Assembly: GCF_014204325.1 (NCBI RefSeq)
Contig: NZ_JACHKT010000003.1
Coordinates: 124,001 to 188,000 of the forward strand
Reading direction: 5' to 3'
From: Arcicella rosea
GTDB lineage: Bacteria; Bacteroidota; Bacteroidia; Cytophagales; Spirosomataceae
Length of the DNA stretch: 64,000 nucleotides
Positions 18,599-24,096 of this stretch are shown here, in pieces (within the stretch, counting starts at the first letter, position 1; the number at the start of each line of letters is the position of its first letter). The notes beneath the pieces were generated by a model. That model did no database searches. It was given only the letters and a program-made list of their open reading frames with translations, and was not told the origin of the DNA. The position numbers were made by a program, and so were the translations under genes.

Positions 18599-18645
18599 TA
18601 AACCGCTTCAAAAGCCTTTAAATGGCGTTTTGAAGCGGTTTTTTG
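18599..18645 (+). terminator. Terminator of tRNA-Pro
   Basis: AACCGCTTCAAAA pairs with TTTTGAAGCGGTT, followed by TTTTTTG. A diverged copy lies at 18851-18911. Confidence 0.85.
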
Positions 18646-18667
18646 TTTCAAATGCTTCATATTTGTT

Positions 18668-18850: not shown

Positions 18851-18911
18851 AAAACTGTTTCAAATGGCTTTATTTGGCGTTTTGAAGCAGTCTTTTGTTG
18901 TATTTGTTTCA
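18851..18911. repeat. Diverged second copy of the tRNA-Pro terminator, at the end of res
   Basis: ACTGTTTCAAA...TTTGAAGCAGT with the shared words TGGCGTTTTGAAGC and TTTTGTT mirrors the tRNA-Pro terminator at 18599-18660. On the minus strand the stem is followed by TTTTTG, so this copy can terminate the res transcript. Confidence 0.65.
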
Positions 18912-18919
18912 TCAAATTC

Positions 18920-23391: not shown

Positions 23392-23540
23392 AAAAAAAGC
23401 GTGGAACGTTGTCTGCTTTGTCTCTGTGGTCGTAGGAAACCTTGTACACAAAAGCAAGACAACGCCACGCAAACCGCATGGCGTTGAACTTTAACTTTCC
23501 CTGTGTACATTTTGAAATTTCCTACGTTTCAGAGGACAGG
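23392..23540 (-). promoter_or_regulatory. Structured leader of mod-res with two mutually exclusive folds (attenuator candidate)
   Basis: On the transcript the strand at 23470-23449 (GCGTGGCGTTGTCTTGCTTTTG) can pair with 23420-23399, giving a stem of about 19 pairs followed at once by T7 (23398-23392), 16 nt before the mod ATG: a terminator shape. Alternatively CTCTG, CGTAGGAAA and TGTACAC (23534-23503) pair with 23449-23422, and CAACGCCA (23467-23460) pairs with 23486-23479. These folds share 23460-23467, so they exclude each other. I know no described family of this kind. A palindromic mobile element is the main alternative. Confidence 0.55.
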
Positions 23541-23615
23541 ATTGTTAAGCTAAACGCTAAAATTTATATGTCTTTTTAATTTTTTATTCGATAAATTGCT
23601 TGTTTTCGTTTTTTG

Positions 23616-23623
23616 CAAAGATA
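23616..23623 (-). promoter_or_regulatory. -7 element upstream of the mod leader
   Basis: On the minus strand the bases read TATCTTTG, an exact TAnnTTTG. Transcription would start near 23610 and give a leader of about 235 nt that includes the whole structured region. No clear -33 box. Confidence 0.35.
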
Positions 23624-23847: not shown

Positions 23848-24096
23848 TCACAAGTAAGAAACGCTACAGAGGTTCATATTTTCGTCAAAAAGATAATTCT
23901 CTGGTGTTCCTGTTGGGATATTTATTTTTACAATTTCTTCTGGGCTAATACTTTCTACATACATCTTCAATGCCCTCAAACTATTGCCATGTGCTACAAT
24001 GAGTATATTTTTCCCTGCTTTTAGCTCAGGTTCAATTTCTGATTGATAATAGGGAACAACTTTCGATTGTTGGCAAAGACTATCATACCGAAGAAA
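23848..24096 (-). pseudogene. gpmA: 3' fragment of a 2,3-bisphosphoglycerate-dependent phosphoglycerate mutase gene
   Basis: The minus strand encodes VVPYYQSEIEPELKAGKN, then ILIVAHGNSLRALKMYVES, ISPEEIVKINIPTGTPENY and a normal-looking end. This is the C-terminal third of GpmA, including the catalytic His in AHGNSLRAL and the NIPTGTP signature. The frame is closed upstream by TAG at 24097-24099 and has no start codon; the N-terminal two thirds (phosphohistidine RHG motif) are absent. It is therefore a truncated relic. No intact copy is in this window. Confidence 0.85.

Follow-up and report, generated by a model that had tools for sequence, protein, structure and literature searches.

Attenuators in the leaders of plasmid rep genes, such as those of pT181 and pIP501, are controlled by antisense RNA. 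The control of restriction-modification (R-M) genes is known to involve C proteins, methyltransferase repressors, and antisense RNA (PMC3874152, PMC12707154). Leader attenuation is not mentioned in these two reviews of R-M regulation. The original prediction stated that no attenuator is known for type III R-M genes. Likewise, we found no leader attenuator of R-M genes in the literature, which was mostly that outside subscription journals. Bacteroidota are a phylum in which regulation by RNA is poorly known. For Flavo-1, a flavobacterial transcriptome study reports both orientations and frequent locations outside transcripts (PMC9723704). The same study also lists unassigned structured 5′ elements.

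Here, we describe the leader of a type III R-M operon in a stretch of 64,000 nt from Arcicella rosea (the window, that is, the whole stretch of DNA that was analysed). Both folds of this leader are kept by matching mutations in about 140 relatives, which makes it very probable that the leader is a genuine genetic switch of a kind not yet described.

The R-M operon and the two folds of its leader

The genes mod and res form a two-gene type III R-M operon in which mod is the first gene, res overlaps it by 8 nt, and the Mod and Res subunits are both present (Table 1). As originally predicted, a -7-like box (TATCTTTG) lies upstream on the same strand, leaving a leader of about 235 nt between the box and the ATG of mod (23375-23373, minus strand). 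Transcription of this leader probably starts near 23609.

Two further observations concern the surroundings of the operon. Just past the end of res, the tRNA-Pro terminator region is imperfectly repeated in direct orientation (61 nt, 79%; 18600-18660 and 18852-18912 of the window). This repeat is possibly a scar left when the R-M operon arrived beside the tRNA gene. Upstream of the promoter, the minus strand of 23880-24080 is non-coding and resembles a decayed phosphoglycerate-mutase C-terminus (..ILIVAHGNSLRALKMYVES..).

Table 1. Features of the R-M operon and of its leader in the window
Feature	Position	Strand	Evidence
res, type III restriction subunit, 857 aa	18920..21493	-	PF04851; PADLOC REase_III E 2e-141
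mod, type III DNA methyltransferase, 629 aa	21486..23375	-	PF12564, PF01555; PADLOC MTase_III E 2e-180
GCCGTATG, mod start region with ATG, complementary to the anti-start segment	23373..23380	-	
U-run (T7), directly 3′ of strand 4	23392..23398	-	sequence
Strand 4, 3′ side of the predicted terminator hairpin	23399..23423	-	segment-swap test
Loop b, 3′ sides of P3, P2, and P1, complementary to loop a	23419..23450	-	
Strand 3 (GCGUGGCGUUGUCUUGCUUUUGU), partner of strand 2 (predicted antiterminator) or strand 4 (predicted terminator)	23448..23470	-	
Anti-start segment AUGCGGU, formed by the strand-2 tail and the P4 loop; its complement is the mod start region	23473..23479	-	
Strand 2 (ACAGGGAAAG..AACGCCAUGC), partner of strand 1 (OFF) or strand 3 (ON)	23476..23503	-	folding; segment-swap test
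Loop a, 5′ sides of helices P1, P2, and P3, hypervariable	23502..23538	-	segment-swap test; fold-A covariation
Strand 1 (GCGUUuAGCUUAAC..UCCUG), partner of strand 2 in the predicted terminator state	23537..23557	-	constrained fold; segment-swap test
-7-like promoter box TATCTTTG, Bacteroidota type	23616..23623	-	sequence

Fold B was found as claimed. It pairs 23470-23448 with 23423-23399 in blocks of 6, 8, 5, and 2 bp, and is followed by T7 and, 16 nt further 3′, by the mod ATG. This fold also pairs a 5′ strand (23557-23537) with 23503-23481, which was absent from the original prediction and whose addition yields a full four-strand logic. Fold A pairs 23538-23502 with 23450-23419 around an inner hairpin (23486-23476/23470-23460); its presence had been foreseen, and it turned out slightly longer than described, with an inner hairpin of 11 bp rather than 8. 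The two folds are mutually exclusive, again as predicted, because strand 3 is common to both.

The 236-nt leader folds at -71.5 kcal/mol, compared with a mean of -44.2 for shuffled sequences (z -5.95; none of 200 shuffles as good). When the two are compared at the U-run, fold A has a mean advantage of about 12 kcal/mol over fold B, and it is the more stable fold in 91-97% of the members of the family described below. In the window leader, fold A dominates and the probability of the pairing between strands 3 and 4 (3:4) is about zero at equilibrium. Since equilibrium favours fold A, termination would require kinetics or a factor.

Evolutionary tests of the two folds

The original prediction had proposed covariation across homologous leaders as a check, and both folds were upheld by it. 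For fold A, 97.4% of cells are paired and 30 of 31 pairs (P1-P4 together) changed on both sides, counts that are biased towards this fold because the alignment was fitted to it. The covariation score of fold A was 0.779, compared with 0.202 in shuffled and at most 0.117 in slid versions. Because of this bias, we used an alignment-free segment-swap test, in which a segment is paired with the partner from its own molecule and with the partners from other molecules, on a family set (n=77) and on a largely separate order/class/phylum set (n=63; class set).

Exactly four pairings were much stronger within than between molecules, namely 1:2, 3:4, 2:3, and that of loop a with loop b (a:b). The own and swapped values of 1:2 were -18.3 and -15.5 in the family set and -18.1 and -12.4 in the class set (0/3000 permutations; Z -10 and -15), and those of 3:4 were -19.4 and -15.2, and -18.3 and -13.6, respectively (0/3000 permutations; Z -13 and -15). 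The test gave Z -17 (family) and -11 (class) for 2:3, and the strongest difference belonged to a:b, with -20.0 against -9.6 in the family set (Z -28) and Z -27 in the other set. Ten segment pairs that had not been proposed were null (Z -1.2 to +3.3). As 1:2 and 3:4 cannot coexist with 2:3 and a:b, two states are under selection, and on this sequence evidence the attenuator logic of the original prediction is supported.

Two further signals bear on the nature of the element. G.U combinations occupied 169 cells and A.C combinations 10, and this wide excess indicates that the folding strand is the gene-sense strand, as RNA. At least four T directly follow the 3′ end of strand 4 in 94% of members in the family set and 97% in the class set, compared with 13% of background windows.

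Loops a and b are hypervariable amid conserved surroundings, yet each pair is still complementary, which hints at RNA-RNA control. In L009 and L018, for example, the constant parts are 95.6% identical and the a-strands 55.6%. The internal loops of the consensus are nearly invariant and unpaired (AA/CC between P1 and P2, AAAUU/GG between P2 and P3).

An almost perfect long palindrome extends across P3-P4 in one locus (L005:1141-1309), the mark of a template-switch event, and P2 alleles elsewhere resemble strand flips (GGTCG/CGACC, CTGGTA/TACCAG). Part of the a:b compensation may thus come from template switching in a palindrome, as in L005.

Many class-wide members (L160 and most of L098-L170) carry a hairpin located 0-60 nt 3′ of the U-run, the loop of which is complementary to strand 4. 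This pairing (S3:S4) was also stronger within molecules in the class-wide set (-11.6 against -9.2 kcal/mol for swapped partners; 0/3000) and brings in a fifth strand, as exemplified by CTCACT-ctGGAACTa-AGTGAG with AGTTCC. It is absent from the R-M leaders of Spirosomataceae. Given this pairing, the U-run of class-wide members may have another role.

Distribution of the family and the genes behind its leaders

A DNA search retrieved elements with 70-86% identity in 21 of 222 Spirosomataceae genomes, with named matches in Arcicella, Emticicia, Runella, and Lacihabitans. A first covariance model, built from 7 of these elements, detected 78 members in 43 of the 222 genomes. A second model, built from 67 sequences, detected members in 100 of 395 genomes drawn from the class Bacteroidia and in 43 of 345 phylum-sample genomes, 7 of these 43 being outside the class. 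The source genome holds one copy only. The exact 5′ motif GCGTTTAGCTTAANAATCCTG is found at 9 loci in GTDB, all upstream of R-M-type genes (by contig and position L013, L014, L004, L010, L009, L018, L002, L003, and L030).

We considered a known Rfam RNA family and rejected it, as neither the window nor 20 diverse loci had a match in Rfam 15 at gathering score, nor was there a match at loose E-values. Phage and IMG/VR sequences held no match to the element, and PLSDB held none to the leader of one member that precedes a Rep3 gene. Based on Rfam and the literature, the leader is very probably a member of an undescribed RNA family.

In 57 of 74 and 42 of 60 members of the two sets, an ORF of 100 codons or more begins in sense at most 150 nt downstream, compared with 8 of 76 and 9 of 60 members for the mirror arrangement. 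Boxes of the Bacteroidota -7 type (TAnnTTTG) are enriched ahead of the element, with 19 of 78 members having one at a distance of 35-80 nt (2.2 expected from shuffles). The genes behind the leader include R-M systems of types I, IIG, and III, 18 RHS-type genes, and lectin-domain proteins. Hence, the element is not specific to type III R-M. Among Spirosomataceae, all five type III mod genes with upstream sequence have the leader, a sixth being cut by a contig end, and in the class sample the leader precedes one of five other type III mod genes. The original prediction had taken a palindrome beside unrelated genes as the sign of a mobile element. The palindrome does lie beside unrelated genes (RHS, Rep3, and others), but each locus has one copy, which stands in sense a short way ahead of a start codon, and these elements are therefore leaders rather than mobile repeats.

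Some members precede other kinds of genes. In two loci (L062:2404-2560 and L073:3501-3669), the gene behind the leader encodes a plasmid replication initiator of the Rep3 type; copy number may thus be controlled by the same type of RNA. In two others (L080:1501-1666 and L084:2340-2506), it precedes Cas12f/TnpB-like genes (PADLOC Cas12f, E 3e-106), with no evident transposon context in the stretch examined.

The same leader may also keep its site as the gene behind it changes. In Runella (L003, L004, and L008), the same leader and chromosomal neighbourhood, by inspection after a hexosaminidase-like gene, stand before either a mod or a ResIII helicase gene. In these loci, as in Emticicia L014 and L023, the same site and leader have a different or decayed R-M gene behind them. 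These are swap sites, at which R-M coding regions are exchanged behind an unchanging leader.

The P4 loop region (e.g., AUGCGGU, ACGGUCA) can pair with the start region of the gene in 13 Spirosomataceae R-M leaders (CCGUAUG, UGACCGUAUG; consensus CCGYATG in the R-M leaders of the family). The mean pairing energy is -11.3 kcal/mol, compared with -5.4 with the start regions of other genes; 121 of 3000 permutations were as good in these 13 related R-M leaders. The base that follows the common core covaries as well: GGUUU/AAACC (L006), GGUCU/AGACC (L003), and GGUCA/UGACC (L010). Fold A buries this segment, whereas fold B leaves it free. With fold B imposed, the start codon pairs with it in 10 of 11 R-M leaders, and the unpaired fraction of the start window falls from 0.59 (fold A) to 0.19, compared with 0.55 and 0.49 in 60 other leaders. 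The same complementarity is present in L127, the leader of a type III mod gene from another family. As a general feature it was rejected, being absent outside R-M leaders (own -4.5, swapped -4.2) and from the class set. These sequences predict a second, translational lock in the R-M leaders of the family.

Proposed mechanism, alternatives, and known systems

We consider it likely that this leader is a cis-acting two-state RNA that attenuates transcription of the R-M operon and, in the R-M leaders of the family, also locks translation. Sequence comparison establishes both folds, the U-run, the sense position, the gene linkage, and the anti-start complementarity of R-M leaders; the step from there to termination in the cell by 3:4 with U7 is one that we infer. 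In the OFF state, 1:2 would be paired, leaving loop a open, and 3:4 would be paired, leaving loop b open, with the 3:4 hairpin and U7 acting as an intrinsic terminator. On transcripts that read through in this state, the freed strand-2 tail (AUGCGGU) would pair with CCGUAUG and mask the mod start codon. In the ON state, strand 3 would lie on strand 2 and loop b would zip onto loop a (P1-P3), so that no terminator forms and the mod start codon is free. Fold A is presumably the default because of its higher stability and because its strands are completed before strand 4.

A factor that stabilises 1:2 or covers loop a would presumably trigger the OFF state. Our preferred candidate is the released short leader itself, the loop b of which could act in trans by pairing with the loop a of a leader still being transcribed. 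Such pairing by the terminated leader would be a dosage-sensing negative feedback, by analogy with plasmid rep attenuators. In a comparison of orthogonality, copies from the same genome did not differ significantly from pairs drawn from different genomes, so that trans feedback is for now plausible and no more. Neither this caveat nor that of template switching affects 1:2 and 3:4.

With low confidence, we extend this proposal to a class-wide RNA family of Bacteroidota, a self-limiting, barcode-specific, and dosage-sensing attenuator of mobile and conflict genes that would act through loop b on loop a in trans. If this is true, an incoming R-M, rep, or toxin gene would be expressed at once and then damped, and in R-M leaders the same state would also mask the start codon. 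How a new host is spared and the R-M level then set is a long-standing question in R-M biology, to which the answers so far have been the three kinds of control named at the outset. A conserved leader switch that serves R-M types I, IIG, and III as well as further accessory genes would be a common RNA device by which newly arrived genes are handled.

A two-state architecture in which the antiterminator rod is the more stable could also belong to a ligand-sensing riboswitch, in which the rod would be stabilised by a metabolite or protein bound to the conserved internal loops, and 3:4 would be the expression platform. The near invariance of the unpaired AA, CC, GG, and AAAUU fits this reading. 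We nevertheless see it as a minority possibility, given that no common pathway is found downstream (R-M, RHS, Rep3, Cas12f-like genes, and lectins) and that P1-P3 are hypervariable, unlike known aptamers, as in the a-strands of L009 and L018. It is also conceivable, and in our judgement unlikely, that the element switches translation or governs mRNA stability, with 3:4 as an alternative conformation, the U-run as only a linker, and control exerted at the start codon rather than by termination. Masking of the start codon by fold B in R-M leaders would agree with this, as would the S3:S4 pairing of class-wide members and the ability of the U-run to pair with an A-run before the ATG in some members (L137, L152, L155). 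However, nearly all members have the U-run directly 3′ of strand 4, as an intrinsic terminator needs, and most non-R-M leaders are without a start-codon effect.

It is highly improbable that the element is a mobile palindrome (REP/MITE-like or attC-like) with covariation derived from hairpin template switching or ssDNA folding. It adjoins unrelated and often horizontally moving genes, and the palindrome of L005 and the apparent P2 flips suggest template switching; yet 1:2 and 3:4 could not both be maintained by template switching within a single long hairpin, and the G.U excess, the single copy in this genome, and the sense position just before genes all speak against this reading. A REP/MITE-type repeat was rejected on the one copy in the source genome, oriented upstream of genes, and an integron attC cassette site on the dispersed single copies upstream of genes, with no cassette arrays among the match lists. 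A ribosome-mediated attenuator was rejected as well, since most members lack the leader ATG of L001 and L002 and the spacing up to the gene start does not preserve the frame. The same holds for an in-frame upstream ORF, which is open in the window from 23510, with neither start nor frame conserved.

The RNA attenuator that we favour can be set beside several described systems. Like Flavo-1 and other Bacteroidetes Rfam motifs (PMC2864571), it is a widespread structured element in Bacteroidota; unlike Flavo-1, it is oriented and borne on leaders. With C proteins, repressors, and antisense RNAs it would share the effect of limiting R-M gene expression. The choice between 1:2 with 3:4 (a terminator with a U-run) and 2:3 (an antiterminator) is that of trp/his-type attenuators. 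In contrast to these, the element is without a conserved leader peptide, its long complementary loops a and b make the 2:3 state more stable by about 20 kcal/mol, and the genes behind it are accessory rather than biosynthetic. It resembles the attenuators of the pT181/pIP501 type in its mobile, dosage-sensitive genes, its predicted choice between terminator and antiterminator, and the pairing of hypervariable loops, and some of its members stand before a Rep3 initiator gene; the difference is that its complementary partner lies within the same RNA. The topology itself is that of a classical attenuator, and the novelty lies in the complementary loops, the predicted lock on the start codon, and the set of genes served.
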